Part shown: one piece after another, positions 16,653 through 47,188 of the stretch
Layout of the letters: each line of letters begins with the position of its first letter
Numbering within the stretch: the stretch's first letter is position 1
Source: Acidobacteriota bacterium
GTDB taxonomy: Bacteria > Acidobacteriota > Vicinamibacteria > Vicinamibacterales > CAVVIG01
Direction of reading: 5' to 3'
DNA length: 64,000 nt
Assembly (NCBI GenBank): GCA_003222395.1
Contig: QHWB01000033.1
Coordinates: 124,001 to 188,000, forward strand
Program-made: the position numbers and the translations under genes
Notes under the pieces: generated by a model
Database searches by the model: none
Seen by the model: the letters and a program-made list of their open reading frames with translations, nothing else
What the model was told of the DNA's origin: nothing

Positions 16653-18071
16653 TCACCGCTGGCTCTTGGTGATCGTGATGTCGCTGAGTGTCTGGCTGTC
16701 GACCGAATATTCGGTGAACGGCTGGTACATCTCGTCCCAGCTTTGCTCCGACCAGTACACTTCCTTCTCCGGCGCCGGGTTCCACTTGTTCTTCGGCGAG
16801 TTGTCGTAGTACCCGATGCCGAGAATCTTGCTGCCGGCCGGAATGTGGAGCGGCTCTTCGAGCTCGTACTGGATCTGCCAGTTGAAGTCGAAATGCGGGA
16901 CGTCGAGAATCGTCTGCTCGTGGCCGTCCGGATAGACGATGACCCACTTCAGGCTCTTGCCGCGCAGATGCATGTGCGGCGACATCGCGTACAGCGTGAT
17001 GTCCTCGGTCACCGGCGTGATGCCCGTCAGCGACCAGCTTTCAGCGTAGGGCGGGATGTTCGGCGTCTTGCTTCGGCGCCGCGTGGTTCCCTCGTCTGCC
17101 GTGTACTCGACCTCTTTTCCTTCCGCGCGGTACAGCGACAGCCCGCCTCTCGTCGTCGCCAGCGGATCGCCGGCCTGACGGATCAGCAGCTCGTGCGTCA
17201 CGGGAACCTTGTTGAACCAGATCCCGAGCTTCGTCCGATCCTTTTCAGGCCTGCCGGTCGGGTTGTAGTGCACCTGCCAGTTGATGTACTTGCCGGCGGG
17301 AATGCGCTTGCCGATGTCGGCGCGATGACGATCGACACCTCGGCCCGGCACCCACGACAGCAGCTTCGACGACCCCGGCAGCGCGCCCACTCCGTTGCGC
17401 GGCGCGCCCCCGGCGCCGCGATCGGTCGAGGCCTTGCCGTCGGACATGATCAGGCGGCCGTCGACGATTTTCGCGCCCTCGGGGATGTCGACGACGAAGA
17501 CGCCGGCGTGATGGACCACGGCGCGATTGCCCGGATGCAGCTCGAGAATCTCGGCGAACTTGTCTTCCTTGAACGGCACCGGCGCGTAGAACATCTGGAC
17601 GCCGAGCTCGCCTTCTGCAGGGATGCTGAACTCGACCGGCATCTCGAGCACGACGTCGGGCTGTGTGCCGACGGTCCATCCGTCAGCGAATTTCGGCACC
17701 GGCGGCAAATCCGCGTCGTTGCCGCGCGGCGCACCGCCGTCCACCCATGCCGCGATCGTTTCGATCTGCTGCCGGGTGAGGCTGCGATCGTTGCGCATCT
17801 TCAAACTGTGATCGGGATCGGCGCCCCACGGCGGCATCTCGCGCGACTGGACCTTGTTCTTGATCACCTTCGCCCACGGCCGCACGTCTTCGTACGACAG
17901 CAGCGACATCGGCGCCACTTCACCCGGTCGATGGCACGTCGCACAGTTGTTGAAGACGATCGGCGCGATATCTTTCGAGAACGTCGGCACGTTCGCGGAC
18001 GCCGGCGACGTGTGAACAGTCGTGGAAACCGCCACGGCGACGGTCGCGGCGATCACAAGCGCGCGTTTCAT
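16653..18071 (-). CDS. Exported cytochrome c / PHM-like copper monooxygenase fusion
   Basis: A 472-residue exported protein: signal peptide (about 1-26), one c-type heme motif CATCH (43-47), then a copper type II, ascorbate-dependent monooxygenase-like double sandwich. All six copper-ligand positions of PHM-like enzymes have counterparts: H187-H188 (AVVHHAG), H268 (WQVHYNPTG), H366 and H368 (MSPHMHL), and M448 (SWDEMYQ). Cytochrome and copper domain could pass electrons within the periplasm. Two longer relatives with TPR tails lie at 39482 and 45161. Hydroxylase activity is inferred from the ligand pattern; the substrate is unknown. Confidence 0.87.
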   Translation of the reverse strand: MKRALVIAATVAVAVSTTVHTSPASANVPTFSKDIAPIVFNNCATCHRPGEVAPMSLLSYEDVRPWAKVIKNKVQSREMPPWGADPDHSLKMRNDRSLTRQQIETIAAWVDGGAPRGNDADLPPVPKFADGWTVGTQPDVVLEMPVEFSIPAEGELGVQMFYAPVPFKEDKFAEILELHPGNRAVVHHAGVFVVDIPEGAKIVDGRLIMSDGKASTDRGAGGAPRNGVGALPGSSKLLSWVPGRGVDRHRADIGKRIPAGKYINWQVHYNPTGRPEKDRTKLGIWFNKVPVTHELLIRQAGDPLATTRGGLSLYRAEGKEVEYTADEGTTRRRSKTPNIPPYAESWSLTGITPVTEDITLYAMSPHMHLRGKSLKWVIVYPDGHEQTILDVPHFDFNWQIQYELEEPLHIPAGSKILGIGYYDNSPKNKWNPAPEKEVYWSEQSWDEMYQPFTEYSVDSQTLSDITITKSQR

Positions 18072-18132: not shown

Positions 18133-18489
18133 TCATTTCGCCGCTGGGCACGACGTGCCGATGGTCGTCACGGAAGTCATGTTGAGGCGATCAGTCGGCT
18201 GCGCCTTGATGTGCAGCCCCTTCACGATGACCGCATGATCCTTGTGCTGGGGCAGGTTGAACTCCGACACGCCAATCAATCTGAACTGATGCGTGCCGAC
18301 CGGGGGCGTTGCTGGAATCTCATCCTTCGACGGCGCGTTCGCAATGCTGGGCACCGGGTCGGTCGCGTTGACCACCATCCACGTGCCCGGCCGGGTCTCC
18401 TTCAGGCATCCTGCCACGCTGACGATATCGACTTTCTGAGACGGCGCAGCCTGCAGCGCGAAAACCAGAAGGATCCCAGCCCTGATCAT
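18133..18489 (-). CDS. Exported hypothetical protein, 118 residues
   Basis: A small secreted protein starting MIRAGILLVFALQAAPSQ, with a cleavable signal. Mature features are VAGCLKE, GTHQFRLIGVSEFNLPQHKDH and a C-terminal GTSCP; two cysteines could form one disulfide. I know similar short proteins from Acidobacteriota but no function. The ATG is at 18489; the gene is divergent from the PSCyt1 gene with only 18 bases between the starts, so any promoters must overlap coding sequence. Confidence 0.75.
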   Translation of the reverse strand: MIRAGILLVFALQAAPSQKVDIVSVAGCLKETRPGTWMVVNATDPVPSIANAPSKDEIPATPPVGTHQFRLIGVSEFNLPQHKDHAVIVKGLHIKAQPTDRLNMTSVTTIGTSCPAAK

Positions 18490-27721: not shown

Positions 27722-27756
27722 GAAGCGCAATACTATACGCGGCAGGGCCGTTGACG

Positions 27757-28407
27757 ATGCGATTCTGTCTGCGGATTCTGTGCGTCGCGTGCGCGGCCGC
27801 GACGAGCGCGGCTTCGCCGGCGCGCGCGCACGATCTCGAGCGGACGCAGGTGTCGCTGACGTTCGCCCGCGACGGATCGTTCGTGCTCGATGTGTCGAAC
27901 GATCCGAGCTGGCTGACGCTGCGGATGGAGCCGTTTCTTCGCGGCCCTCAAAGGGCCGCGCCAGGAGAAAGGGCCGTGCCACAGGAAGCGGCCGCGCCGC
28001 GCCAGGCGTTCATCGATCGCGTCGTGCTGTGGGTCGATGGGCGCGAGGTGAGGCCCGAGTCGGCCGAGCTCCTTCCACCGCGCATCGAGAACGGGCTGGC
28101 GACGTATCGGCTGCGCGGGCACATGCCGCTCGACGCCCGCACGCTTCGGTGGTACTACGGCCTCGTCGTCGATCCCTATCCGCTCACGATTCGACGCGCC
28201 GATCGCCGGATCGTCGTCGAAGAGATCGCCGGCGACGCATGGAGCCGATCCATCGACCTCTCGGCACAGTTCGCCTCGCCGCTGCGCCTCCGGCTCGAGC
28301 GCCAGCTGCCGACCGCGTCCCTGTTTGCTCTCTTCGCCCTTGGGTTGAGCCTTCGTCGTTTCAGCCGGCGGAGAGATCGATCGGCACAACTGTTGCCACA
28401 CGTTTGA
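27757..28407 (+). CDS. Exported hypothetical protein with C-terminal membrane anchor
   Basis: A 216-residue protein with an N-terminal signal (MRFCLRILCVACAAATSAASPARAH region), a beta-rich body including RVVLWVDGREVRPESAELL and WYYGLVVDPYPLTIRRADR, and a short hydrophobic segment near the C-terminus (ASLFALFALGLSLRRF) followed by basic residues. No named family is recognised; the body resembles Acidobacteriota periplasmic proteins of unknown role. At 27944-27990 a GGGCC-rich repetitive stretch adds about 15 residues (RGPQRAAPGERAVPQEAAAP) in frame. It ends one base before the recQ start, so the two may be coexpressed. Confidence 0.7.
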   Translation: MRFCLRILCVACAAATSAASPARAHDLERTQVSLTFARDGSFVLDVSNDPSWLTLRMEPFLRGPQRAAPGERAVPQEAAAPRQAFIDRVVLWVDGREVRPESAELLPPRIENGLATYRLRGHMPLDARTLRWYYGLVVDPYPLTIRRADRRIVVEEIAGDAWSRSIDLSAQFASPLRLRLERQLPTASLFALFALGLSLRRFSRRRDRSAQLLPHV

Positions 28408-28408
28408 C

Positions 28409-29752
28409 GTGGCGATCCCGACGCGCGACCTCGAGAAGACGCTGCGCCGCGTCTTCCGCGTCAGCAGCTTCCGTCCCGGCCAGGAAGACGTCGTCCGATC
28501 GGTGCTGAGCCGCCGCGACACGGTCGCCATCATGCCGACCGGCAGCGGCAAATCGCTCTGCTATCAGCTGCCCGGCCTGCACCTGCACGGCACGACCGTC
28601 GTCATCTCACCGCTCATCTCGCTGATGAAGGATCAGACCGACAAGCTGTCGGAGCTGGGCCTCGACGCCTCGCAGTTGAACAGCGCGTTGACGCCGCGCG
28701 AGGAGACGGCGTCACTCGACGCAATCCGCAGCCGCGATTCCGAGTTCGTGCTGACCACGCCCGAACGGCTGGCGAGCGATCCCGACTTCGTCAGCGCGCT
28801 TCGCCGCAATCCCATCGACTTCATCGTGGTCGACGAGGCGCACTGCGTCTCGCAGTGGGGAAACGATTTCCGGCCTGCGTATCTGGCGCTGAAACCGGTC
28901 ATCGACCGGCTCGGCCACCCGCCGATTGTCGCGCTGACGGCGACCGCGACCGGATCGGTGGTGGACGACATCGTGAAGGCGCTCGGCCTTCGATCGCCGC
29001 ACATCGTCAACACCGGCATCTTCAGGTCCAACCTGAAACTCGAGGTGTTGCGCACCGCGAGCGAAGACGACAAGCGGCTGCGGCTCGTGGAGCTGCTGCG
29101 CGACCTCGACGGAACCGGCATTGTCTACGCCGCGACGATCACGCAGGTGGATACGATCTGCACCGAGCTCAACGCCGTGGACTTCGAGGTGGCGCCCTAC
29201 ACGGGACGGCTTGGCCGGCGCGAACGCCAGGATAATCAGGAGCGCTTCATGTCGGGCGATGTGAAGGCGATCGTGGCGACCAACGCGTTCGGGATGGGGA
29301 TCGACAAGGCGGACATCCGGTTCGTGATCCACTACGCGATTCCGGGATCGCCCGAATCGTATTACCAGGAAGCGGGCCGCGCGGGCCGCGACGGCAGCGA
29401 GGCGCGATGCATCCTGCTCTTCCGACTGGAGGATCGCCGCATCCAGCGCTACTTCATCGCCGGCCGCCACCGCGGCGCCCGGACGCGTCTCTCGCGCAAA
29501 GGACTCTCCGCGGCGCAGCTCGACGCGAAGCTGCGCGAGGAGGAGGCGCGCCGCCAGGGCGACGAGGACAAGCTCGAACGGATGATGCTGTACGCGCAGT
29601 CGCCCGAATGCCGATGGAAGTTCCTGCTGCAGCATTTCGGCGACGGCGGCGATTTCACGGAGTTCGCGTGCGGGGCGTGCGACAACTGTCTCCATCCGCC
29701 CGAATCGCAGATAGCGCCGCCGCGAAATGGCCTTCCGAGCGTCAACGCGTGA
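28409..29752 (+). CDS. recQ: Short RecQ-type ATP-dependent DNA helicase
   Basis: A 447-residue superfamily 2 helicase that unwinds DNA 3' to 5' in repair. Walker A is in MPTGSGKS (42-49), the DEAH box is at 142-145 (VVDEAHCVSQWG), and the second RecA domain ends with QEAGRAGRDG. Four cysteines, C401 and C421/C424/C427 (ACGACDNC), form the RecQ zinc site. The protein then stops, so the winged-helix (RQC) and HRDC parts of E. coli RecQ are absent; this is a short RecQ form. Start is GTG 28409, two bases after the previous stop. A basic insert (RHRGARTRLSRKGLSAAQ) precedes the zinc domain. Confidence 0.92.
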   Translation: MAIPTRDLEKTLRRVFRVSSFRPGQEDVVRSVLSRRDTVAIMPTGSGKSLCYQLPGLHLHGTTVVISPLISLMKDQTDKLSELGLDASQLNSALTPREETASLDAIRSRDSEFVLTTPERLASDPDFVSALRRNPIDFIVVDEAHCVSQWGNDFRPAYLALKPVIDRLGHPPIVALTATATGSVVDDIVKALGLRSPHIVNTGIFRSNLKLEVLRTASEDDKRLRLVELLRDLDGTGIVYAATITQVDTICTELNAVDFEVAPYTGRLGRRERQDNQERFMSGDVKAIVATNAFGMGIDKADIRFVIHYAIPGSPESYYQEAGRAGRDGSEARCILLFRLEDRRIQRYFIAGRHRGARTRLSRKGLSAAQLDAKLREEEARRQGDEDKLERMMLYAQSPECRWKFLLQHFGDGGDFTEFACGACDNCLHPPESQIAPPRNGLPSVNA

Positions 29753-29793: not shown

Positions 29794-31374
29794 TCACCTG
29801 TCGCTCGTGCCGCCGCCGAGCGGCGGCGTCGTCTGCGGCGGCTTGCGATGATGTGTTCCCCGTTCGTATGCGTACGCGAGGCGGAACAGCGTCGGCTCTG
29901 CGAACGCACGAGCCATGAACTCGAGGCCGACGGGCAGACCGTCGGGCGTGAAGCCGGCCGGGACCGTCATCGCCGGAAACCCGATCGCCGGGCTCAGGCG
30001 CCGATTGTTGCCCGGTCCTGTAGCGTCCACGACCGCGCGCGTCGTCGCGTCTGAAGGAATGCGAACCGGCGGCTGATCGAATGTGGCGTACACGAGCGCA
30101 TCGAGGCGCTGATCCGCCATGGCCTTGAGCACGTCCTGCCTCAATTCCTCCCTGGTCAACAGGTGCTGCAGGTACCCGGCCTCGTCGATCGACCGGCCGA
30201 CGACGCTCATCAGCGTGCGGGCGCGCGAGGGGACGACTTTTCCCGTCAGCAGAATCTCGCTCAGCGTCTTCACCGGCGCGTTGGGATGCTGCGACAGGTA
30301 CCTGTTCATCGCCGCTTCCGTCTCGAACACGTTGCCGTCGTACACCTTCATCGATCGGCTCGCGAGATCGCGGACCGTCACCGGATCGACGAGCACGGCG
30401 CCCAGACGCGTCAGATCCGCGAGCGCGCGGTCGACGATCGTTCGCACCTGTTTGTATTCGGCCGATGCCGGATCGGCTCTGGAGTCGAGCGGCTCGCGAA
30501 TGACGCCGATGCGCGCGCCTTTCAATCCGTCGGCGACGAGAAACTGCGTGTAGCTGGATGGCACGTGTCCGACGGCGTCCGCCGTTACCGGATCGTTCGC
30601 GTCGTATCCTGCAATCGCGTCGAGGACGATTGCGGCGTCTTTCACCGAGCGCGCGATCGGCCCGAGCGTGTCGGTGGTCGGGCGGGCGGGCATCATCCCG
30701 AAGCGGCTGACCAGCGGCAGCGTCGGCCGAAGACCGACGAGATTGTTCACCGATGCCGGACCGCGCACCGAGCCGCCCGTGTCTTCTCCAATTCCCACCG
30801 TCGCGAAGTTCGCCGCGACGCCGGATCCCGTGCCCCCGGACGAACCGCTGGCGCTTCGCGCCGGATCGTACGCGTTGCGCACCGCGCCGAACGCCGATCC
30901 GAGATATCCCGACGCGAATTCGCCCATCGTCGTCTTGGCGACGATCACCGCGCCGGCTGTCCTCAGGCGCGCGACGATCGTCGCGTCGCGCCGAGGAACG
31001 AAATCCTTGAACACGGCCGACCCGTAGGTCGTCGGCATGTCGCTCGTCTCGACCTGATCCTTGACGAGCATCGGCACACAATGCAGCGGACCGACCGGAC
31101 CGCTGGACGCAAGCGCCGTGTCGAGACGGTCGGCATCCTGCAGCGCTCGCGGATTGATTGTCTGCACGGTGTTCAGCGACGGACCGGATTTGTCGTACGC
31201 GTTGATGCGGGCGAAGTACTGCTCGACGAGCGCGCGGCACGTGATCTGTTTCGACGCGAGCGCGTCCCGCACGTCGTCGATCGTCGCTTCGACCAGTTGA
31301 AAGCGCGCCGCCGGGGAAGACGGACGCTGAAGCGGCGCGGAGAGTATGAACAGAAGCGCTGCGAGCTTTCGCAT
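29794..31374 (-). CDS. Exported amidase (amidase signature family)
   Basis: A 526-residue Ser-cisSer-Lys amidase, hydrolysing a carboxamide to acid and ammonia. The ATG at 31374 begins a signal-like stretch (MRKLAALLFILSAPL), so it probably acts outside the cytoplasm. The lysine is K105 (MLVKDQVE), the glycine-rich signature is GSSGGTGSG (177-185), and the nucleophile is in EDTGGSVRGPAS (S202). Later family blocks DTLGPIARSVKDAAIVL and PVGLEFMARAF are intact. It lies 42 bases downstream of an NHL/PAL-like gene on the same strand; a mirror pair lies at 33776-36376. That repeated pairing suggests a joint role in amide metabolism. Confidence 0.92.
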   Translation of the reverse strand: MRKLAALLFILSAPLQRPSSPAARFQLVEATIDDVRDALASKQITCRALVEQYFARINAYDKSGPSLNTVQTINPRALQDADRLDTALASSGPVGPLHCVPMLVKDQVETSDMPTTYGSAVFKDFVPRRDATIVARLRTAGAVIVAKTTMGEFASGYLGSAFGAVRNAYDPARSASGSSGGTGSGVAANFATVGIGEDTGGSVRGPASVNNLVGLRPTLPLVSRFGMMPARPTTDTLGPIARSVKDAAIVLDAIAGYDANDPVTADAVGHVPSSYTQFLVADGLKGARIGVIREPLDSRADPASAEYKQVRTIVDRALADLTRLGAVLVDPVTVRDLASRSMKVYDGNVFETEAAMNRYLSQHPNAPVKTLSEILLTGKVVPSRARTLMSVVGRSIDEAGYLQHLLTREELRQDVLKAMADQRLDALVYATFDQPPVRIPSDATTRAVVDATGPGNNRRLSPAIGFPAMTVPAGFTPDGLPVGLEFMARAFAEPTLFRLAYAYERGTHHRKPPQTTPPLGGGTSDR

Positions 31375-31416
31375 GTCGGCGGTCACATTTCTACGTGGCG
31401 GCCTGAACGCCGTGCC

Positions 31417-32550
31417 CTACCTGCGAGCCTGAGTCGATCCGGTTGCAGGCGGAACGAACTTCTGCAGCCGCTGGCCGTACGTGTCCGCCGCGTACACCGC
31501 GCCCTTCGAGTCGACGACGATGCCGTGGACCCAGTCGAACTCGCCGGGTCCCCAGCCCTGCTTGCCCCACGTCGCGAGGATCCGGCCGTCCTTCAGATTG
31601 AACTTCACCACGCGCTCGTCCTTGTGATCGGCAATCCAGCCGATCCCGTCGGTGCCCTTGCGCGAGATGTTCACGTCCCAAGGATTCCAGTCGTTGCGAA
31701 TCTCGCGGATGTAGTTCAGGTTCCTGTCGAACACCTCGAGCCGGTGCCCTTCGCGATCGATGATGTACAGGTTCTCGTCCGCATCGACCGCGAGCTTGTG
31801 CGGAAGATTCCATTCGCCGGGTCCGGTGCCCTTGTCGGCCGGACCCCCGGCGCCTCTGGCAACCTGCTTGATGAACTTTCCGTTCTTGTCAAACATCACG
31901 ACGCGATTGTTGCCGTACCCGTCGGTGACGATCATGTTGCCGTTGTGCAGAATCGCGATTCCCGACGGCAGATTCAGATGCGTGGCATCGTTGCCCTTCT
32001 CGTTCGTCTTTCCCACCTGCAGTAGAAACTTGTCGAGCTTCGGCGACAGCTTCACGATGCGATGCGCGTCGCGCTCGATGACGTAGACGCTGCCGTCCCA
32101 GTCGACGCCGCCCGAATGCTGCCACGAGGGGTTGATCGTCTTGCCGTTGATCTCCTGATCGGCGCCCGACAGGACAAGATTGCCGCCGGTGTCGAACACC
32201 ATCACCGGCTTCACGCCGCGGTTGAAGACGTAAATGCGATCGTGCTGATCGATCGCGAGCCCCGAGATGCCGGGTTGATTCGCTGGTCCGCCCGCCTGCG
32301 CGTTCCGGCCCCCGCCGGCTGCCTGTGGTGAGCTCGCCGAACCACCTCTCGCGCGCCGCGCGGCCGCCTGCGCCTCGCGTTCGGCGGGAGGCGGCGGAGC
32401 GTCTTTCAGTCCGAAGTACATTCCGGCCGGCAGTTGCGGCCAGTCAGGGACGAGGCGATATCCGCCGTCGCCGGGCTGTGCGGAAATGCGGCCACTGATA
32501 AAGGATGCGCCGGACAGGACTACGAGCAGCGTGATCAAAGGGCGTTTCAT
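31417..32550 (-). CDS. Exported NHL-repeat protein, PAL-like
   Basis: A 377-residue exported six-bladed beta-propeller of the NHL type. It resembles peptidyl-alpha-hydroxyglycine alpha-amidating lyase (PAL), which splits hydroxyglycine adducts into an amide and glyoxylate using a metal held by three histidines. Candidates are H145 (PSWQHSGGVDWDG), H251 (EWNLPHKLAVD) and H342 (EFDWVHGIVVD); the last two stand in blade contexts very like those of rat PAL. A low-complexity Ala/Gly/Pro/Gln linker (52-95) follows the signal region. ATG 32550 is clear. It precedes the amidase gene in the same operon. Lyase activity is inferred. Confidence 0.85.
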   Translation of the reverse strand: MKRPLITLLVVLSGASFISGRISAQPGDGGYRLVPDWPQLPAGMYFGLKDAPPPPAEREAQAAARRARGGSASSPQAAGGGRNAQAGGPANQPGISGLAIDQHDRIYVFNRGVKPVMVFDTGGNLVLSGADQEINGKTINPSWQHSGGVDWDGSVYVIERDAHRIVKLSPKLDKFLLQVGKTNEKGNDATHLNLPSGIAILHNGNMIVTDGYGNNRVVMFDKNGKFIKQVARGAGGPADKGTGPGEWNLPHKLAVDADENLYIIDREGHRLEVFDRNLNYIREIRNDWNPWDVNISRKGTDGIGWIADHKDERVVKFNLKDGRILATWGKQGWGPGEFDWVHGIVVDSKGAVYAADTYGQRLQKFVPPATGSTQARR

Positions 32551-32612
32551 GAGGCGCAGTGTAACGCAGGGGGGCCGGCGATCGATTGTAGGGGATGCTC
32601 TCGAGACCGTCC

Positions 32613-32870
32613 CTACCGCGAGGTCGTCGGGTCGTCGTCGTCATCGTCGTCGAGGAGCTCGGTCGGCGCTCGCTTGCCGCGTCGGCGGCCGAGCGGCGCC
32701 GTACCGGACTCGAGCCCAAGATTCCGATCGAGGAAGGCTTCGAGCTCGCGCAGCGTGGCGGGACTGGTCAGCGCCACGATCTGGAGCTTGTCGACCATCG
32801 CGCGGGCGCGGGTCGCTCCGATTTGCTCGAACAGCCGAAGGTAACGCTTCGTGCCGAACAGGTCGGTCAT
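32613..32870 (-). CDS. Small protein with poly-aspartate tail
   Basis: An 85-residue protein starting MTDLFGTKRYLRLFEQIG at 32870, with the ribosome-binding site GGAGGG a few bases upstream. The first 60 residues are helical and end in a helix with LRELEAFLDRNLGLES. A basic GRRRGKR block is followed by a run of seven aspartates (ELLDDDDDDDPTTSR) encoded by a GTC/GTCGTC-type trinucleotide repeat. The charge pattern (basic then strongly acidic) suggests binding to nucleic acid, a basic partner or a divalent metal. No family recognised. Probably in the same transcript as the PAL-like and amidase genes. Confidence 0.65.
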   Translation of the reverse strand: MTDLFGTKRYLRLFEQIGATRARAMVDKLQIVALTSPATLRELEAFLDRNLGLESGTAPLGRRRGKRAPTELLDDDDDDDPTTSR

Positions 32871-32949
32871 CGCAGCCCTCCGGTGAGAGCCGCCAGTATA
32901 ACGGTCGCCATCCAACCGGGCGCACTTCTTTTGAACAAACTGCATTCAC

Positions 32950-33091
32950 GTAGCGCGAGGCTTTCAGCCGAGCGGGGGTGCAGCCGCAGCTGGACGCTCG
33001 CCTAAAAGGCTCGCGCTACCGCGAAGCCTCGAGCTACCGCGAAGGCTCGAGCTACCGCGAAGGCTCGAGCTACCGCGCAGGCTCGCGTTCC
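32950..33091. repeat. Palindromic elements plus an 18-bp tandem array
   Basis: A composite repeat between divergent genes. It has an inverted copy (GTAGCGCGAGGCTTTCAGCC then GAGCG, 32950-32974), a direct copy (32995-33020), then three 18-base units of GCGAAGGCTCGAGCTACC type (33021-33074) and a partial fourth (33075-33091). The tandem unit is itself derived from the palindrome's GGCTCGCGCTACC end. It fills most of the 274-base gap before the cupin gene, so that gene's promoter must lie inside or beside it. Confidence 0.9.
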
Positions 33092-33144
33092 AGATGAGCG
33101 CACAGCTCGCGGCTATAATGCCGCCGTTCCGAAAGGGAGCCGCC

Positions 33145-33762
33145 ATGCTGCGCCTGGTCGTCATTCTCGCCGCGCTGATCCAGATCGCTCCGCTGCCTCC
33201 CGCGTATCCGCGCGTCGGCGCCACGAAAATCCTCGACAACCCTCGCGTGCAGGTGTGGAACATCGCGTGGCTGAAAGGACAGCCCTCGCCGCTGCACCGT
33301 CACGTGTACGATCTCGTCGGCGTCTACTACGAGCCGGGCGATCGCATGATCATCTCGCCGGAAGGAAACAAGCGGCCGGTCTCGACGAAGGCCGGCGACA
33401 TTGCGTTTCAACGAAAAGGCGTGACGCACATCGAAGAGGGCATCAGCGATTCGCCGCTCCGCGCGGTCTTCATCGAGATGAAAGACGACGGTCCGACGGG
33501 CCGCACGGCCGCGCCGAGCGAGGAGGCGCCGCCGATGAGCGGCATCGGCGGGAAGCAGCTGCTCGACAACGATCGCGTCACGGTCTGGGCCTACGCGTGG
33601 GGCCTCGGGATGGATGGACCGCGCCATCGCCACGACCGCGACACCGTCGTCGTGTGGATTCAGGATCGTACGCCGCACGCCGTGTGGGTTCCGGCCGGCA
33701 CCGTTCATTCGGAAGAACAAACGGGCGTCATCTCTGAAGCAACCATCTTCGAGCTGAAATGA
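33145..33762 (+). CDS. Exported bicupin protein
   Basis: A 205-residue protein with a signal or anchor (MLRLVVILAALIQIAPLPP) and two small cupin-like barrels. The first has PSPLHRHVYDLVGVYYEPGD (histidine pair typical of metal cupins) and the second PRHRHDRDTVVVWI. Both halves contain the same GDI or GTV type turn, so it is an internal duplication. ATG 33145 is preceded by AAGGGAG. It leads an operon with the PAL-like and amidase genes. Possible roles are a dioxygenase, an isomerase or a metal-dependent sensor of the pathway; I cannot decide. Confidence 0.83.
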   Translation: MLRLVVILAALIQIAPLPPAYPRVGATKILDNPRVQVWNIAWLKGQPSPLHRHVYDLVGVYYEPGDRMIISPEGNKRPVSTKAGDIAFQRKGVTHIEEGISDSPLRAVFIEMKDDGPTGRTAAPSEEAPPMSGIGGKQLLDNDRVTVWAYAWGLGMDGPRHRHDRDTVVVWIQDRTPHAVWVPAGTVHSEEQTGVISEATIFELK

Positions 33763-33775
33763 CGGGAGACGGCTC

Positions 33776-34900
33776 ATGAAACATCTTGCGATCGTCATCG
33801 GACTCGCCGCGCTGTTCCAGACGCCTCCGCCGGGCACGGCGGCGCCGACGATTCCGTTCGACTCGTCGATCGACTTCCTGAAGTACTCGCCCGACATGAA
33901 CCTGGGCGAGGTGCTCGCCGTCGCGGTCAATTCCAAAGGTCACATCGTCGTCCTGAATCATCCGGGCAGCGCGACATCCGGGCCGCTCTACGGCAACGCG
34001 TCGACGCAGCTGCTCGAATTCGATCAGACCGGCAAGTTCGTGCGCGAGATCGGCAAAGGCGTGTACGGGCTCGGCTACTCACACAGCGTTCGCTTCGACA
34101 GGTACGACAACCTCTGGGTCGTCGACAAGGGGACGAACGCCGTCGTCAAGTTCAATCCCGCCGGCTACGTCACGATGAATCTCGGCCGGCGTCCGGAGGG
34201 ACCCGACGATCCCGCGGAGTCGTACTATCGCGGCGGACGCGGGCAGGCCGCCGCCGTGCACGTCGACGGATCCTTCCGCCAGCCGACCGACATCGCCTGG
34301 GACTCGGACGACAACATCTACGTCAGCGACGGCTACACGAATTCACGCGTGGCGAAATTCGACAAGCGCGGCGCCTGGATCAAATCGTGGGGCTCGCGCG
34401 GCAGCGGCGGCCAGCACGCCGACGAGAACCCGGGTCAGTTCAACACGCCGCACAACATCGGCGTCGATCGGCAGAACAACGTGTACGTCGCCGATCGCGG
34501 CAACCGCCGCATTCAGGTCTTCGACACGGACGGCAGGTTCCTGCGCATGATCCATCTCAACGTGCCGTACGACAAGAAACGGCATCCGGTGCTCGGCAAC
34601 CTCGCGGCGAACCCGCCCGACGAAACGGCGCCGTGGACGATCTGCATCACCAACGGCGCGACGCAGTTTCTCTACACGACCGATCAGGAACCTGGACGGC
34701 TCTACAAACTGACGCTCGAGGGCAGAATCGTCGGGATGCTCGGCGAGTCTGGACGCGACGCGAAGCAGTTCAACTGGGTGCACGGCATCGCGTGTCCCTC
34801 CGACGATGTCCTCTATCTGGCCGACATGAACAACTGGCGAGTGCAGAAGATAACGCTCCACCCCGAGCGCATGACGAAGACTGCGACGGGATCCAGATGA
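33776..34900 (+). CDS. Exported NHL-repeat protein, PAL-like
   Basis: A 374-residue secreted NHL beta-propeller, a distant relative of the 31417-32550 protein. The three candidate metal-ligand histidines sit at H103 (GLGYSHSVRFD), H226 (QFNTPHNIGVD) and H336 (QFNWVHGIAC). Several NHL blades are obvious, for example NNVYVADRGNRRIQVFD. ATG 33776 lies 13 bases after the cupin gene. It is followed by an amidase, mirroring the operon on the other strand. A short insert (GRRPEGPDDPAESYYRGGR) between blades 2 and 3 is not in the other copy. Activity is inferred. Confidence 0.84.
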   Translation: MKHLAIVIGLAALFQTPPPGTAAPTIPFDSSIDFLKYSPDMNLGEVLAVAVNSKGHIVVLNHPGSATSGPLYGNASTQLLEFDQTGKFVREIGKGVYGLGYSHSVRFDRYDNLWVVDKGTNAVVKFNPAGYVTMNLGRRPEGPDDPAESYYRGGRGQAAAVHVDGSFRQPTDIAWDSDDNIYVSDGYTNSRVAKFDKRGAWIKSWGSRGSGGQHADENPGQFNTPHNIGVDRQNNVYVADRGNRRIQVFDTDGRFLRMIHLNVPYDKKRHPVLGNLAANPPDETAPWTICITNGATQFLYTTDQEPGRLYKLTLEGRIVGMLGESGRDAKQFNWVHGIACPSDDVLYLADMNNWRVQKITLHPERMTKTATGSR

Positions 34901-34996
34901 TCTGGGCGCTGCTCGTCTTCGCGACACTCACCGGCGGTGCGCGATCCGCCACGCCGCGTGGAAGATGGTCGTGACGCAGCCGACGACCGGCCGGCC

Positions 34997-36376
34997 GTGA
35001 GCGACGAGTCGCTCTGCTTCGACAGCGCGCGTGGGATCGCGAGGCGCATCCGCACGCGCGAGATCTCCGCGCGCGAGGTGATGGCGGCCTTCCTGGATCG
35101 CATCGTCCGCTGCAATCCCACGCTCAATGCGATCGTCGCCAGGCGCGAAGACGAAGCGTGCCTCGCGCTCGCGGACGAAGCGGATCGCGCCGTCGCGAGC
35201 GGCGCCGCGTCCGGCGCGCTGCACGGCCTGCCGATCGCGTTCAAGGATCTCGAGCCGGCAACGGGCTTCCCGTGGACCCGGGGCTGCCCGTTCCTTCGCG
35301 ACGCATACCCCGCCGACGACTCGATCCTCGTGCAGCGTTTGAAGCATGCGGGCGCGGTTCCAATCGGCAAGACGAACGTGCCGCAGTTCGGCATGGGATC
35401 GCACACGTATAACGAGGTCTACGGCACGACGCGCAATCCCTACGACGTGACGAAGAGCGCCGGCGGATCGAGCGGCGGCGCGGCGGCGGCGATCGCCGCC
35501 GGTCTCCTTCCGATTGCCGACGGCAGCGATTTCGGCGGCTCGCTCAGAAATCCTGCCAACTTCACGAACATCGTCGGCTTCAGGCCGTCGTTCGGCCTGG
35601 TGCCGGATGCGCCGAATCCGCTGCCGTCGCTCGGCTTCGGCGTCAAAGGCCCGATGGCGCGATCGGTCGACGATGTCTCGTTCCTGCTGGCCGTGATGAC
35701 CGGGCGATACGCGGAATCCGATCTCGCGCGAGACTTCGCTGGCGTCCGCGTGGCCTGGTCGCCGGATCTCGACGGCCTCCCGCTCGACCGGCGGGTTCGT
35801 CGCGTGCTCGATGGGCAGCGCCGCACGTTCGAGGATCTGGGGTGCCGCGTCGAAGAGGCATGCCCCGATTTCAGCGGCGTCGACGATTTCTTCCTGACGA
35901 TCCGCGCGGCGCGATCGTGGCAGACGCTCGCCCCGCTTCTCGCCGGTCACCGCGACGAGATCAAGCCGGAAGCCGTCGCGGAAATCGAAGCGGGATCGCG
36001 CGTCACCGCCGCGCAGCTCGCCGAGGCGATCGACCGGCACGAGGCATTCCTCGACCAGATGCGCCGCTTCCACGAGCGGTTCGAGTTTCTGATCTGCGCG
36101 GTGAACCAGGTGCCGCCGTTCGATGCCTCGATCGACTGGCCGCATGACATCGACGGCGTGCGGATGGAACACTACATCGCGTGGATGAAGTCGGCGTACT
36201 GGATCAGCGCGACATTCGATCCGGCGATTTCGGTCCCCGCCGGCTTCACGGCGGACGGTCTTCCCGTCGGTGTCCAGATCGCCGGCCGGCGCGGAGACGA
36301 TCGCGGCGTCCTGCAGCTGGCGTACGCGTTCGAGCAGGCCACGGGCTGTGGGCGAAGACGCCCGCCGCTCGCCTGA
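34997..36376 (+). CDS. Amidase (amidase signature family)
   Basis: A 459-residue amidase. The lysine is in PIAFKDLEPATG, the glycine-rich signature is SAGGSSGGAAAAIAAG, and the nucleophile serine is in GSDFGGSLRNPA. FGVKGPMARSVDDVSFLL and GLPVGVQIAGRRGDD are standard family blocks. I take the GTG at 34997 as start; an in-frame GTG at 34937 would add 20 residues. No signal peptide is evident, so it probably works in the cytoplasm, unlike the exported amidase at 29794. The stop codon (36374-36376) lies within a dispersed palindrome copy. Confidence 0.91.
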   Translation: MSDESLCFDSARGIARRIRTREISAREVMAAFLDRIVRCNPTLNAIVARREDEACLALADEADRAVASGAASGALHGLPIAFKDLEPATGFPWTRGCPFLRDAYPADDSILVQRLKHAGAVPIGKTNVPQFGMGSHTYNEVYGTTRNPYDVTKSAGGSSGGAAAAIAAGLLPIADGSDFGGSLRNPANFTNIVGFRPSFGLVPDAPNPLPSLGFGVKGPMARSVDDVSFLLAVMTGRYAESDLARDFAGVRVAWSPDLDGLPLDRRVRRVLDGQRRTFEDLGCRVEEACPDFSGVDDFFLTIRAARSWQTLAPLLAGHRDEIKPEAVAEIEAGSRVTAAQLAEAIDRHEAFLDQMRRFHERFEFLICAVNQVPPFDASIDWPHDIDGVRMEHYIAWMKSAYWISATFDPAISVPAGFTADGLPVGVQIAGRRGDDRGVLQLAYAFEQATGCGRRRPPLA

Positions 36377-36456
36377 AAGGCTCGCGCTACCGGCGATTCG
36401 TGCGCTCGCCTGAAAGGCTCGCGCTACCGGTGTAGCGCGAGGCTTTCAGCCGAGCG
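36366..36456. repeat. Three copies of the dispersed palindrome
   Basis: Two direct copies (36366-36391 and 36403-36428) of CGCTCGCCTGAAAGGCTCGC then GCTACC, and one inverted copy (36432-36456) of GTAGCGCGAGGCTTTCAGCC then GAGCG. They lie between convergent genes: the first copy contains the amidase stop and the other two contain the last codons and stop of the MFS remnant. Together they can form a large cruciform and could serve as a two-way transcription end. Confidence 0.92.
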
Positions 36457-37220
36457 AACCGCCACCGGCGTCAACTTCACGCCTTTCGTCTCCGGCAGCG
36501 CCCACACGCTCGCGCCCGCGAGCAGCGCGAACGGCGCGGCGAGCGCGATGCCGGCGCCGAAGCTCGATCGCGCCGCGACGAACGTGATGGCGACCGGCGC
36601 GAGAAACTGCACGCCGCGCGAGACGTTGTAGATGATTCCGAGCGCCGCGGCGCGCACCGGAGTCGGAAACACTTCGTTCAGCAGCGGACCGATGCAGCCC
36701 CAGTTCCCTTCGCCGACGCCGACGAGAAACATGAAGGCGAAGAGCGTCGGCGAATAGCCGCTCGTGAGGCCCCAGCCCAGCGTCACCATGATCAGGCCGA
36801 CCGCCTTGACGATCGAAAACGCGGTGAAGCTCGGACGGCGGCCGAAGAAATCGCTGGCGTAGCCGAAACCGACGTATCCGACGACCGACCCGAGTTGATC
36901 CACGAACAGCAGCAATGCGGACTGATCGAGCGAGAGTCCGCGGAGATCATCAGCAGCGGCTTGCGCCCGAACCGATCCGCCAGCGCGCCGCCGGCAAGGC
37001 CGCCGACAGCGGTGAACGCGAGCGCGGTACCGAGCAGCACCGAGACGTCGTAGGCCGACAGCGCGAGATCCTTCGTCAGCGACGTCGACGCGACGACAAA
37101 GCTCAGAAGGAGGAGATCGTAGAAATCGAAAATCCACCCGATGAACGAGAACGCGAGAATCCTGCGATGGATCGGCTGAACGTCCTCGTACTCGCTCAGC
37201 AGGTGCGGGGGCGCGCTCAT
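36424..37220 (-). pseudogene. MFS transporter remnant with internal deletion
   Basis: The 5' part (start ATG 37220) encodes MSAPPHLLSEYEDVQP, helix 1 and helix 2 and the classic loop ADRFGRKPLLM, then leaves frame near 36940. A different frame continues with a second-half MFS sequence (SALLLFVDQLGSVVGYVGF, FFGRRPS, VGVGEGNWGCIGPL, ALPETKG) to 36424. The two parts add up to about 265 residues against about 430 in an intact transporter, so roughly 160 residues (helices 3-6) are missing together with a frame change. The last codons are supplied by the palindromic repeat (RSAESLALHR). It overlaps the DUF6351 fragment by ATGA. Confidence 0.85.
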
Positions 37221-37921
37221 GATTTATTCGACGATCCGATCGCCGCCCACGGCACCACGGGTCGCTGGCTGACGCCCGGTTTCGGGAAGTCGCAGACGCC
37301 GGCGGCGAAGATCGTCTTCAGCCGCGCCACTTCGTCAGCCGTGAACGTCAACGCGTAGTCGTGCGCATCGATTGGCTTCAGCTGACACTTCAGCACGTTC
37401 GCCGCCAGCGGTCCCCCCGCCTCCTTCCGCGGGTTCGAGTACACGGGATACAGCTCGCTGCACTTCGATACCGGTCGGCTGGTGAACACGAGCTCTTCGG
37501 CGATGAACGACGGCGCCGCCGACTTGTCGAAGCAGCCATCGACGAAGGCTCTCGGCCTGGCGCGCAGCACCTTCACGCGCTGCGGATCGGCCGACGCGTC
37601 CGATTTGTACGCCGCCATCCATCGGTCGAACTGCTCCTGCGCCGCACCGGCGTTCCCGGCGCGCCACATCACGAAGTTGTCCGGCGCGCCGCCGGCTCCC
37701 TGACGGATACGTTCACGCACGGCGAAATGGAACCACGCGTAGTGGTAGCCGCCGGTCTCGTTCGACATCGCGTTGTCGAAGATCGGAATCGACGTCAGGC
37801 CGCCGTTGCCGCCGAGCGTCAGCCCATGCTGATACGCACGCGCGATCGCGCCGGCGTCGCCAACGGTCCGCGACGCGACGTAGTTCGAGTCGCGATCGAT
37901 GCCGCCGATCCGATTCGTCAT
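37217..37921 (-). pseudogene. DUF6351 C-terminal fragment
   Basis: An open frame of 234 residues starting MTNRIGGIDRDSNYVASRT matches the C-terminal third of DUF6351-type exported proteins (about 700 residues when complete), with YHYAWFHFAVRERIRQG, DNFVMWRAGNAG and AARPRAFVDGC-type blocks and a cysteine-rich tail. No signal peptide or N-terminal domain is present; the frame upstream is only the antisense shadow of the AtoE-type gene. Just upstream is a short repetitive GA/TC-rich stretch, perhaps the deletion end point. It overlaps the MFS remnant, so the two once formed an operon. It might still be expressed but cannot be exported. Confidence 0.75.
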
Positions 37922-39481: not shown

Positions 39482-41362
39482 CTAGCGCTCGCGCCTGCGG
39501 TACCGTTCGGCTCGAGCACGCAGATCGGATGCGAGCGGCTCGGGCGGCGAGAGCCGCAGCGCGGCGTCGACGGTTTCTGCCGCGCGATCGAAGGCGCCGG
39601 CGGCGGCGTATGCGCCTGCCAGGTTTGCGAGCGCGCCGGCCGACTTCGGATCGAGCCCGACGACTGCCGTGAACTCCTGGATGGCCGGCTCGAACTTCCC
39701 CTGCGCGAGCCACACGTTGCCCAGGTTGTTGTGCGCTTTCGCGTACGACGGATCCGCCTTGATCGCCTGCTGATACTCGTACGCCGCTTCGTCGAAACGG
39801 CGCGCGATCGTCAGGGCCGTGCCGAGGTTGTAGAACGCGGGCGCCGACGGACCTTTCAGCGCCAGCGAACGTGTGAAGTGCGCGACGGCGCGATCCGGCT
39901 GCCCCACTTCGAGGTACAACAGCGCCGCATCGTCGTGCAGCCCGGCTTCGTCGGGATGCCGTTCGAGCTCGGTCTCGTACCCGATCACGTCCTCGGCGGC
40001 GACTTTTGCGCGAAAGGCATGCGTGAGCGTGACGAGGTCCGGCTCGTTCTTCGTCAGCACCTGAATCCACAGGTCGCCCATCTCGTCCGACGAGCGCTGT
40101 CCCCATCGCGCGCGCTTCGGCGGATGCTCGGGGTTGCGGACGTTCGCGGCCGAGTTGTCGTACACCCATCGCATGGAGAGCGTCGTGCCTTTCGGCAGCG
40201 TGAACGGCTTCGCGAATCGATAGACGTGCTGCCAGCGGAAGTCCCAGTCGCCGACGTGAATCAGCTCTTCGACCGTCCCGTCCGGCAGACGCGCCTCGCC
40301 GCGGACGTCGCGCGCGCGGTAGTGCGCGTGCGGCTGCACCGCCTGCACCTCGACGTCGACCGGCAGCACATACGAATCGGTCACGACATAGTTGCTCTCG
40401 CCGGCCGGAATGTCGATGTTCTGATGGCCGAGGCGCAGCATCGCCGGAATCCTCGTGGGCGGCTGGTCGCTGAAGTACAGGCCGACCGACGGCTGCACCG
40501 CCTCGGCCTTCCCGCTCGGCTGCATGTGGATCTCGACAACGAGATCGGTGCGGGGATCGAGGCGCCACGAGTAATCGTTCGGCAGCAGCGGCGCGACCTG
40601 GCCCGGCGTCCAGGCGAGGAAGTGTCCTTCGGGGTAATCGGCGGAACGAAGAATCAAGCCGCTGTACCCAGGGGCCGGATCGGCGTCGTCCATCTGTCGC
40701 GACGCGGCCGTCCGATCGACGCGGATGTTCGCGTGGTGCACGACTTTCGGATTGCCGGGACGAAATTCGAGTCCGCGCACGAATCGAGTTGCGTTCACCG
40801 GCAGCGGGATCACGAAGATGCGGAACACGTCGGCGCCGCCGGCCGGCAGCATGTACGGTTCCGGCAGCGAGACGACGAGATCGGGTGTGCCGAGCTGCCA
40901 GCCTGCGCTCCACCGCTGCCGGCCCGGAAGCGGCGGCAAATCGCGTGCGTCCCCTTCCGGCGCGCCGTCGCCGGCCCACTGCTGAAAGAGCGCGATCTCG
41001 GCGTCGGTCAACGGATGCTGACCGACGAACGGCCCATCGGCTGGATCAGCCTTCCACGGCGGCATGTAACGCCGGCTCGTGACGAGCGCGATCTGCGTCG
41101 CGCGGCGCTTGACGTCGGAGTATGTGAGAAGGCTGAACGGCGCGGCGCCGTTCTCGTGGTGGCACATCGCGCAGCGATCGGCGATGAGCGGCGCGATGTC
41201 TTTCGAATAGGTGACGGTCGTGAACGCCGGCGCGATGTCTTTCAGTTGCGTGGTTGGTAGCGCGAGGCTTTCAGCCGAGCGAGCGGGATCGGCGGATCGG
41301 CCCGCCTGGACGGCTCGCCCTACAACGAGCGTCGAGATCAGCGCGAACGCTGCAGCTTTCAT
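39482..41362 (-). CDS. Cytochrome c / PHM-like copper domain / TPR fusion
   Basis: A 626-residue exported protein. It has a signal region, a heme motif CAMCH (64-68), a PHM-like copper monooxygenase double domain and a C-terminal TPR array (about 455-625, e.g. AFYNLGTALTIARRFDEAA). Copper ligands are complete: H209-H210 (KVVHHAN), H279 (EIHMQP), H345/H347 (QPHAHY) and M428 (SSDEMGDLW). Residues 28-35 (RSAESLAL) are encoded by a copy of the dispersed palindrome. The start overlaps the redoxin gene stop (ATGA). It may hydroxylate a substrate in the periplasm with the TPR part holding a partner. Function inferred. Confidence 0.88.
   Translation of the reverse strand: MKAAAFALISTLVVGRAVQAGRSADPARSAESLALPTTQLKDIAPAFTTVTYSKDIAPLIADRCAMCHHENGAAPFSLLTYSDVKRRATQIALVTSRRYMPPWKADPADGPFVGQHPLTDAEIALFQQWAGDGAPEGDARDLPPLPGRQRWSAGWQLGTPDLVVSLPEPYMLPAGGADVFRIFVIPLPVNATRFVRGLEFRPGNPKVVHHANIRVDRTAASRQMDDADPAPGYSGLILRSADYPEGHFLAWTPGQVAPLLPNDYSWRLDPRTDLVVEIHMQPSGKAEAVQPSVGLYFSDQPPTRIPAMLRLGHQNIDIPAGESNYVVTDSYVLPVDVEVQAVQPHAHYRARDVRGEARLPDGTVEELIHVGDWDFRWQHVYRFAKPFTLPKGTTLSMRWVYDNSAANVRNPEHPPKRARWGQRSSDEMGDLWIQVLTKNEPDLVTLTHAFRAKVAAEDVIGYETELERHPDEAGLHDDAALLYLEVGQPDRAVAHFTRSLALKGPSAPAFYNLGTALTIARRFDEAAYEYQQAIKADPSYAKAHNNLGNVWLAQGKFEPAIQEFTAVVGLDPKSAGALANLAGAYAAAGAFDRAAETVDAALRLSPPEPLASDLRARAERYRRRER
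41257..41281. repeat. Dispersed palindrome inside coding sequence
   Basis: A perfect copy of GTAGCGCGAGGCTTTCAGCC then GAGCG lies within the reading frame of the cytochrome/PHM/TPR gene. It encodes the residues RSAESLAL just after the signal peptide. The identical octapeptide ends the MFS remnant at 36424, because both are translated from the same repeat in the same frame. Confidence 0.92.
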
Positions 41363-41892: not shown

Positions 41893-41964
41893 CCAGAAAA
41901 CGATAACACGAAGAAAAAAGAGCGGGCCCCCATGGACCCGCCCCAGCAACCAGCGACCAGCTGC

Positions 41965-45160: not shown

Positions 45161-47188
45161 TTACAAAAAGTTGGATTGTCGGTAGGGTTGACGGCGCTGA
45201 TAGAGGATCAGGCGCTGCCGGAGTTCGGCGGCGGCCGCGTCGAGGCCGCCGGCGGTTGCCAAATTGATACCGCTCTCGACGATCGCGACAGCGTCGTCAA
45301 AGCGACCTGCTGAGGCATATGCAGCGGCGAGTGCGTCGAGCACCGAGAGATCGCGTCTGCCCGTCGCCGCCGCGGCGCGCTCCGCGAAGGTGACGGCCTG
45401 CTCGGAATTGCGCAACGACGGATCGGCGACAGTCGCCCGAATCCACGCGATGCCGGCCAGCGCCTGCGCACTGTCGCCGCGCAGCGTGAGCGCCGCCTCG
45501 AAATGGTCGAGCGCTTCGCGCGCGCGTCCCTGCGCCGACAGGAGCTGCGCGAGGTTGATCTGCGCATCCACGTTGTCGGGCCTCAGCGCGACGGCGCGGC
45601 GGAAATGATCGAGCGCTTCGCCGGCGCGGCCGGCGAGCTGCAGCATCGCGCCCAGGTTGTTGTGCGCCTGCGCGTACTCGGGGTCGAGGCGCAGCGCCTG
45701 CTCGAACGCGCCGCGCGCCTCGTCGCGGCGGCCGCGCATCGACAGCGCGAACCCGAGGTTGTAGTGCGTCGGCGCCGAATCGGCGTTGAGCGACAGCGAG
45801 GCGCGATATTCCGCAATCGCGTCGTCGTACCGCGCGTCCTCGAGATACAGATTGCCGACCGCGTCGTGTCGCAGCGGATTGCCGGGATCCTCGCGCAGCA
45901 GCTTGACGTACGCCGCGAGATCCTCTGCGTGCGATTTCCGCCGGATGTCGTCGGCGAGCACGGCGGCGTCGCCCGCCGATCGTGCGACGATCTGAATCCA
46001 GAGGTCGCCCATCTCGTCGCTCGTGTTCTGTCCCCAGACGACGCGCGCCGGCGGATGGTGCGGATTGCGCGCGTTGCCATCGCTGTTGTCGTACGTGTAG
46101 CGCATGGCGATCGCCGTGCCCTTTGGCAGCGCGACCGGATTCTTGTAGCGGTAGACGTCCTGCCAGCGGAAATCCCAGTCGTCGATCGCGATCAGCCACC
46201 GCGTCGTGCCGTCGGGCAGCGTCGCCCCGGCTTCCATGCGCCGCGCGAGGTTGTGCGCGTGAGGCTGTACCGCGAGCACGTCGGCGTCGACCGGCAGCAC
46301 GTAGCGATCGGCGACGACGTAGTCGCGGGCGCCCGGCGGGATGTCGATCGTCTCGCTGCCCAGCCGCAGGCCGAGCGGTGTGCGCGAGGGCGCCTCGTCG
46401 GTGAAGTAGAAGCCAACGCTGACCTGCAGCGTCTCCGGCTTTCCGGTCGGCTGCATGTGGAGCTGCACGACCAGATCGCTGCCCGGCTCGAGGCGCCATG
46501 CGGTACCGGGAGGCACGGGGTGCGCCGCCTGACCCGGCGTCCAGCCAAGGAGCTGTCCCTCGGGATAGCGCGCATCGGGAACCATGCCGCCGACGTAGCC
46601 GGGTTCCGGATCTTTGAGATCGAGTTGTCGCGACGAACGCGTGCGATCGACGCCGATGTTCGCGTGATGGACCACGCGCGCGGTACCCGGCCGGAACTCG
46701 AGCGCGCGCACGAACCGCGCGCGCGGCAGCGCGATCGGCAGCACGAACGTGCGGAACACGTCGGTTCCGCCGGCCGCGACGGTGTAGGCCTCGGGCATCC
46801 GCACGACGAGATCGGGCGTACCGAGCTGCCACGCCTCCGCTGCCGGCTGCGCCGGCATCGGCGGCAGATCTTTGCTGTCGCCTTCGATCGCGCCGTCGGC
46901 GATCCAGCGCTGGATCTGCTCGAGCTCGGAGTCGGTCAGCCGGCGTTCCGATTCGAAGTCGCCTTTGCCCGGCTCCGGCTTCCACGGCGGCATGATGCGG
47001 CGCGCGGTGACGATCTTGATTTGCGTCGCGCGGCGCTTCACGTCCTCGTACGTCGCGAGGCTGAACGGACCGATCGCGCCGGGACGATGGCAGGTCGTAC
47101 AGCGACGCCACACGATCGGTGCGATATCGTTGAAACTCACCCGCGCCTCGACCGTCAGCGCCGCCGCGGCGATCAGCGCGATCATCAT
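45161..47188 (-). CDS. Cytochrome c / PHM-like copper domain / TPR fusion
   Basis: A 675-residue exported protein, a paralogue of the 39482 product. Heme motif CTTCH (30-34), PHM-like copper ligands H174-H175 (RVVHHAN), H244 (QLHMQP), H310/H312 (QPHAHN) and M393 (SDEMGDLW), then a longer TPR array (about 430-660, e.g. AHNNLGAMLQLAGRAGEALDHF). The adjacent ATG pair at 47188 and 47185 are both possible starts. It stands on the minus strand 116 bases upstream of the TonB receptor and divergent from the glycosyltransferase gene. Substrate unknown; TPR repeats suggest partner binding. Confidence 0.88.
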   Translation of the reverse strand: MMIALIAAAALTVEARVSFNDIAPIVWRRCTTCHRPGAIGPFSLATYEDVKRRATQIKIVTARRIMPPWKPEPGKGDFESERRLTDSELEQIQRWIADGAIEGDSKDLPPMPAQPAAEAWQLGTPDLVVRMPEAYTVAAGGTDVFRTFVLPIALPRARFVRALEFRPGTARVVHHANIGVDRTRSSRQLDLKDPEPGYVGGMVPDARYPEGQLLGWTPGQAAHPVPPGTAWRLEPGSDLVVQLHMQPTGKPETLQVSVGFYFTDEAPSRTPLGLRLGSETIDIPPGARDYVVADRYVLPVDADVLAVQPHAHNLARRMEAGATLPDGTTRWLIAIDDWDFRWQDVYRYKNPVALPKGTAIAMRYTYDNSDGNARNPHHPPARVVWGQNTSDEMGDLWIQIVARSAGDAAVLADDIRRKSHAEDLAAYVKLLREDPGNPLRHDAVGNLYLEDARYDDAIAEYRASLSLNADSAPTHYNLGFALSMRGRRDEARGAFEQALRLDPEYAQAHNNLGAMLQLAGRAGEALDHFRRAVALRPDNVDAQINLAQLLSAQGRAREALDHFEAALTLRGDSAQALAGIAWIRATVADPSLRNSEQAVTFAERAAAATGRRDLSVLDALAAAYASAGRFDDAVAIVESGINLATAGGLDAAAAELRQRLILYQRRQPYRQSNFL

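Follow-up and report, generated by a model that had tools for sequence, protein, structure and literature searches.

A window of 64 kb, comprising positions 124001-188000 of one contig (QHWB01000033.1) from an Acidobacteriota genome of 7.7 Mb, harbors two genes for NHL-repeat proteins, NHLm and NHLp, that resemble peptidyl-alpha-hydroxyglycine alpha-amidating lyase (PAL). Each lies next to an amidase gene (AMIm and AMIp, respectively). In relatives, the usual neighbor of NHLm is not an amidase but F1, a protein that joins a c-type cytochrome to a domain resembling peptidylglycine alpha-hydroxylating monooxygenase (PHM). We propose that F1 and NHLm act in sequence as a periplasmic, split version of peptidylglycine alpha-amidating monooxygenase (PAM), in which F1 would hydroxylate a substrate and NHLm would cleave the product; we put the probability of this reading at about 0.5. 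The observations on which it is based are the linkage and co-occurrence of the two genes, the predicted PHM fold and the copper-ligand motifs of F1, and the PAL residues of NHLm. The genes concerned are the following.

31417..32550, minus strand: NHLm, PAL-like NHL propeller (Pfam PF01436)
16653..18071, minus strand: F1, c-type cytochrome with a predicted PHM-like dicopper monooxygenase domain, ortholog of the NHLm neighbor in relatives
18133..18489, minus strand: F6, short protein belonging to the conserved set, unassigned in Pfam
27751..28407, plus strand: F2, short homolog of a HupE/UreJ-like protein, no Pfam match for the window copy
29794..31386, minus strand: AMIm, amidase-signature enzyme (PF01425), best PDB match peptide amidase, lineage-specific neighbor of NHLm
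33776..34900, plus strand: NHLp, second PAL-like NHL protein (PF01436)
34937 (or 34997)..36376, plus strand: AMIp, amidase-signature enzyme (PF01425) scoring above the NF005686 (PRK07486) cut-off, lineage-specific neighbor

NHLm was matched at E<=1e-60 in 30 of 193 genomes of the class, its own genome included. The DNA surrounding the 29 other matches was compared over up to about 12 kb on each side, less at contig ends, and neighbors were counted by clustering combined with tblastn (by tblastn for loci L087 and L088). F1 was present in 16 of the 29 loci, at no more than 4.1 kb from NHLm, F3 (a DUF1579-like protein) in 18, 17 of them within 1.2 kb, F2 in 17, and F6 in 14. The 16 loci with linked F1 span 7 of the 13 genera that possess NHLm and belong to families f1, f5, f12, and f13. 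The binomial probability of such linkage by chance was about 2e-10 when 40 F1-like genes per 5 Mb were allowed and 4e-5 when the loci were collapsed to genera; apart from this genus count, the probabilities given here for linkage and co-occurrence ignore shared ancestry. F1 lies downstream of NHLm and is codirectional with it in 11 of the 16 loci; it is downstream but oppositely oriented in L067 and L071, and upstream but codirectional in L087-L089. Distant relatives of F1 were located 6.8 and 10.9 kb from NHLm in two further loci (L081 and L083). The contigs of L087-L089 were also analyzed as L183-L185; their NHL proteins are 39-40% identical to NHLm, and their sources are presumably marine, to judge from isolate names. 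In L185, F1, F3, NHL, and F6 are consecutive and codirectional, separated by 92, 12, and 30-60 bp, and F2 lies divergently upstream. L183 and L184 share this order, with F1 cut by the contig end.

Co-occurrence across genomes pointed in the same direction. F1 with at least 50% identity was detected in 27 of the 30 genomes with NHLm versus 13 of the 163 without it, as scored from the 8-10 best candidates per genome. G149 and G151 (cut by contig end) and G118 were counted as having F1, and G177 and G171 (matched in pieces) as lacking it. Expressed as genomes with both genes, NHLm only, F1 only, and neither, the distribution in f12 was 13/1/1/28 (p 5e-9); it was 5/2/1/19 in f1, 3/0/0/6 in f13, and 2/0/0/0 in f5.

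F1 bears a CxxCH heme motif. Among F1 members searched at E<=0.01, Cytochrome_CBB3 was matched in 16 of 19 and Cu2_monoox_C (PF03712) likewise in 16 of 19; the window protein scored 24.0 bits against a cut-off of 23 bits for the latter, and two further window homologs (F1b and F1c, below) as well as those from L185 and L166 scored below it. The fold of window F1 was compared by way of an AlphaFold2 model (pLDDT 74.1, pTM 0.73). With this model, Foldseek returned PHM first (E 2.4e-12), and its rows 1-31 were all PHM or dopamine-beta-hydroxylase (DBH). VIA-align gave a Z score of 17.3 to PHM over 258 residues at 3.1 A and 16.3 to human DBH, the first unrelated fold following at 7.4; identity to PHM was about 15% in the aligned part. 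The candidate copper-ligand motifs are the pair HH 187/188, H268, H366/H368, and M448, which we equated with PHM H107, H108, H172, H242, H244, and M314 by their order within the shared fold. They occurred in this order (HH, H, HxH, M) in all 10 proteins of alignment A5, which included F1b and F1c and comprised 10 of 11 prepared rows, L159 being left out. In alignment A3, H, HxH, and M were present in 19/19 rows and the HH pair in 18/19, one row beginning after it. Passages of one study of PHM state that one copper is bound by H107, H108, and H172, none of which can be lost without inactivating the enzyme, that M314 belongs to the other copper site, and that H242 and H244 were seen as copper ligands (PMC6123673). 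Model and motifs together suggest that F1 is a PHM-like protein with a putative dicopper center.

The NHLm profile aligned with rat PAL (3fvz) in a single stretch (E 4.6e-37). In PAL numbering, R111, H145, Y212, H251, R266, and H342 of NHLm correspond to R533, H585, Y654, H690, R706, and H786; an offset of 491 placed all six numbers on the right type of residue in the 3fvz sequence. All six were invariant in the 28 aligned NHLm orthologs (alignment A1, excluding L080 and L086 as truncated). Among wider relatives (alignment A4, 50 NHL frames picked by hand for length), five of the six were present in 50/50 and Arg533 in 44/50; the count for Tyr is biased because one of the two search patterns for these relatives contained the Tyr motif. 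A further comparison added 48 rows, several of which were duplicates, NHLp rows, or paralogs. A model of NHLm (pLDDT 87.5) matched PAL with a Z score of 33.9 and the NHL domain of Thin with 34.3. In NHLp, the metal histidines H103, H226, and H336 were found in 32/32 sequences, and the counterparts of Tyr654 and Arg706 are also kept. NHLp has no Arg533; Asn61-His62-Pro63 stands there, with His62 in 32/32, and the further comparison likewise placed a His in this column. The three histidine contexts of the PAL metal site, reported for both NHL proteins in an earlier note on this DNA, are indeed present.

Some NHL paralogs carry Glu, Ser, or Lys in place of the last metal His. In those of L102, L113, L114, L115, L180, and L231, Tyr654 is replaced by His and the last metal His by Glu, perhaps forming another metal site. 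In L221 and L230, whose contigs are labeled Cenarchaeum, open frames exceeding 1,700 codons matched NHL repeatedly.

The scheme that follows is inferred, down to its metals, the path of the electrons, the cellular compartment, the two-step chemistry, the substrate, and whatever role an amidase may have. Its members would be F1 and NHLm, the latter as a PAL-like zinc lyase, and F3, F6, and the HupE/UreJ-like F2 would be accessories. Inspection by eye suggests that F1, F3, F6, and NHLm are secreted. Electrons would enter F1 through its own heme rather than from ascorbate, the heme domain being the likely entry point. At the putative copper pair of F1, O2 would serve to hydroxylate the carbon adjacent to the nitrogen of an amide, candidate substrates being N-acylglycine-like compounds or other N-alkyl amides, and NHLm would split the resulting carbinolamide into the amide and glyoxylate or another aldehyde. 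The F3 and F6 sequences examined do not end in glycine, and therefore no candidate peptide was seen. In this lineage, AMIm, probably secreted and encoded downstream of NHLm, could hydrolyze the released amide. It is doubtful, in our estimation, that the system goes as far as bacterial peptide amidation or N-acylglycine dealkylation by separate PHM and PAL enzymes, with PHM wired to respiration by cytochrome c.

The earlier note had described two mirror-image NHL-amidase sets and had read them as a two-step route in which a lyase releases an amide and the amidase then turns it into acid and ammonia. It had the genes, strands, and coordinates of both sets right, although the AMIm reading frame extends to 31386 versus 31374 in that account. 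NHLm and AMIm are separated by 30 bp, the cupin-like gene and NHLp by 13 bp, and NHLp and AMIp by 36 or 96 bp, and such short gaps are compatible with operons. PF01425 was matched in AMIm and AMIp with E values of 5e-93 and 1.5e-88 (313 and 298 bits), and the Ser-cisSer-Lys motif was recognized by eye in both translations. AMIm further matched the peptide amidase structures 5ac3 (E 4e-76, residues 21-518) and 1m21 (E 8e-74). NHLm and NHLp are about 29% identical, as are AMIm and AMIp, so that neither pair consists of recent copies, in agreement with that description.

The pairing itself was not conserved across genomes. NHLp was matched at E<=1e-60 in at least 86 of the 193 genomes, with the best candidates per genome scored, and 31 matches of at least 61% identity were compared over flanks of the extent used for NHLm; matches of similar identity outside this set were found in at least G174, G158, G177, and G181. 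With both window amidases as tblastn queries (E<=1e-8), an amidase was detected in none of the 29 NHLm stretches and in one of the 31 NHLp stretches (L091, 32% identity, 4.8 kb away). Less than 1 kb of downstream sequence was available at L062, L085, and L086 for NHLm and at L109, L118, and L119 for NHLp. Among the matches listed, AMIp-like genes (52-54%) lay about 9.7 kb from NHLp, just beyond the stretches, in G183, G184, and G185, which belong to one genus. The reverse comparison covered 22 AMIm and 13 AMIp orthologs of at least 61% identity, with about 4 kb per side where the contig allowed. An NHL gene was found near one of the 22 AMIm orthologs, an NHLp-like gene adjoining it in L135, and near none of the 13 AMIp orthologs. 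The arrangement in the window is thus a local one. Scoring 150 of 238 candidates in the genome of the window gave at least 25 NHL frames; with about 19 amidase genes and an assumed total of 6,900 genes, about 0.14 adjacent NHL-amidase pairs would be expected. Two were seen, in one cluster and noticed after the fact, which is only mildly unusual. By eye, a signal peptide is present in NHLp and absent from AMIp, and this pair would therefore occupy different compartments. AMIm may act after NHLm in this lineage only.

A locus of the same family, L064, showed how the arrangement might have arisen. Its order is C38 transporter, MFS, an unassigned ORF (open reading frame), cupin, two others, F3, NHLm, F2, F6, and F1, and neither an amidase nor RecQ was matched in it. 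The window has the reversed series C38 (38060), MFS (36424), cupin (33094), NHLm (31417), F2 (27751), F6 (18133), and F1 (16653). Relative to L064, two pairs of genes are extra: NHLp with AMIp, which separate MFS from cupin, and AMIm with a RecQ-like gene, which separate NHLm from F2. Five genes stand between F2 and F6, and F3 had no match in the window. From gene order, the mirror image is best read as an old cluster that gained genes twice. L064 may alternatively have lost genes; gain is favored because none of the other NHLm loci has an amidase. The remaining features of the window are as follows.

28409..29752, plus strand: RecQ-like helicase, with AMIm between NHLm and F2
33094..33762, plus strand: CUP, cupin-like protein (single PDB match)
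39482..41362, minus strand: F1b, cytochrome/PHM-like protein ending in a TPR tail, the second in the window, of a distant subfamily
45161..47188, minus strand: F1c, cytochrome/PHM-like protein ending in a TPR tail, the third in the window, of a distant subfamily

The RecQ-like helicase had no match at E<=1e-20 in loci L061-L120. CUP had been called a bicupin in the earlier note, a name that rests on little: there was no Pfam match, and the one PDB match was a cupin type-2 protein aligned to residues 40-129. Three of the 29 NHLm loci also contain CUP, at a distance of 3.7-4.2 kb from NHLm, as does one of the 31 NHLp loci, where it lies 229 bp from NHLp. In L090 (1100-2995), from another genus, the cupin-NHLp pair is retained at 63% and 83% identity with no amidase. 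F1b and F1c are 56-58% identical, and an AhpC-like protein (41359-41949) adjoins F1b. In L143 (411-3539), a relative of F1b (73%) adjoins an AMIp ortholog (67%); the same two lie about 3 kb apart in the window, and a separate link between AMIp and F1b is possible. The F2 proteins of the window and of the same-family loci L061, L063, and L064 are about half as long as homologs in other families, and the missing part is the region that carries HupE_UreJ_2 in the longer homolog of L171. The MFS transporter (36424-37220, minus strand) consists of two overlapping frames, each matching MFS_1, pointing to a broken gene or an assembly error. An ORF at 37217-37921 (minus strand) is likely a remnant, its match to DUF6351 (tannase-like) being confined to the final third of the family (435-654 of 655).

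Several observations weigh against a split PAM-like module. F1 in the window is 13.3 kb away from NHLm. The NHLm query matched none of 20 F1 loci away from NHLm, and 13 of these, all from f14, showed F1-F3-F6 with no NHL gene found (L237-L246 and L248-L250); the core would thus be F1-F3-F6, with the PAL-like protein a frequent but optional member. Co-occurrence was weak in f14 (4/0/11/13 in the order used above, p 0.07). The fold of NHLm is as near to Thin as to PAL, and PAL Met784 and Asp787 are mostly replaced. The PAL signature also recurs in NHL proteins of other phyla, in records labeled Planctomycetota, Hydrogenedentota, and others, and F1 was found in 0 of the 50 loci L186-L235. On the side of F1, no N-terminal PHM domain (PF01082 in Pfam) was matched in the F1 proteins, and sequence-only PDB searches did not reach PHM. 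In one of the 20 loci, L252 (6500-9426, genome G044), an NHL gene 26% identical to NHLp was seen about 450 bp from an F1 ortholog (71%); NHLm of G044 is on a different contig.

The f14 loci, the closeness to Thin, and the PAL residues in other phyla also speak for NHLm and F1 being linked with no common substrate. NHLm would then be a propeller that binds or serves as a scaffold, or a metal hydrolase of another kind, and the metal site would be a trait of bacterial NHL proteins in general. The conservation of three His, Tyr, and Arg suggests catalysis instead, and in L185 the NHL gene is packed between F3 and F6 behind F1; we hold this explanation to be somewhat unlikely. F1 might also be a DBH-like or other C-H oxidase of non-amide substrates, whose product NHLm handles by another reaction. 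PHM and DBH have their copper ligands in common, human DBH was among the top fold matches, and the window encodes three cytochrome/PHM-like proteins; the protein linked to F1 is nevertheless PAL-like, and we consider such chemistry unlikely. The lyase-then-amidase pathway, whether conserved or confined to this lineage, draws on the two adjacent pairs in the window, on the naming of the best PDB matches of AMIm as peptide amidase, and on the NHLp-like gene of L135. Peptide amidase removes C-terminal amides, which would suit the product of PAL. Against it stand the genome counts (amidase in 0/29 and 1/31 stretches, NHL in 1/35 amidase ortholog loci), the colinear L064 without either amidase, and the cytosolic appearance of AMIp by eye. 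Its PAL-like half is borne out, its amidase half is not, and we regard the pathway as improbable. It also lacked a maker of the lyase substrate, for which the neighbor F1 is a candidate.

If the split PAM-like module proposed here exists, a linked bacterial pair of PHM-like and PAL-like proteins would bear on the origin of PAM, as a prokaryotic counterpart of the eukaryotic enzyme and possibly a relative of its ancestors. It would also represent a way of supplying a copper pair with electrons without ascorbate, it would point in Acidobacteriota to an unseen route, located in the periplasm, by which N-acyl amides are oxidized or peptides are amidated, and it would give a testable function to bacterial families known to the libraries used only as NHL repeat or cytochrome c. 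The main text of a 2019 review of PAM, as far as available, enumerates eukaryotic lineages and has no words in "bacteri" or "prokaryot" (PMC6529398). Neither a bacterial PHM/PAL pair nor a cytochrome-PHM fusion was among the literature matches listed, which cover subscription journals thinly and are weak evidence. Bacterial PAM-like sequences have possibly been mentioned in print.

Among known systems, AMIm resembles the peptide amidases of 5ac3 and 1m21, from Stenotrophomonas. ScyF (NF035926) has NHL repeats and was the best NCBIfam match of both NHLm and NHLp, but identity with it was rejected, since their scores of 106 and 107.5 bits fell short of the cut-off of 350. NHLm shares with rat PAL the six-bladed NHL propeller and all six compared residues, although only 26% of residues are identical in the structural alignment. 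A methylguanidine dioxygenase-lyase pair is similar in that a carbon on nitrogen is hydroxylated before a lyase cleaves; it differs in using a 2-oxoglutarate enzyme and an unrelated lyase, which, according to passages of that report, has no sequence homology to PAL (PMC12508155). PAM, as outlined in parts of the 2019 review, hydroxylates the alpha-carbon of glycine in a reaction that depends on copper and O2 and then cleaves the product, with zinc, to the amide and glyoxylate, and insects have separate PHM and PAL proteins (PMC6529398). A bifunctional PAM was rejected here, F1 and NHLm being separate genes in the window and their counterparts in L185. The likeness to PAM lies in the predicted PHM fold and six copper-ligand motifs of F1, the PAL-like propeller and metal site of NHLm, and the genetic linkage of the two, whereas the present system is bacterial, its PHM part is fused to a c-type cytochrome, and its putative lyase is optional.

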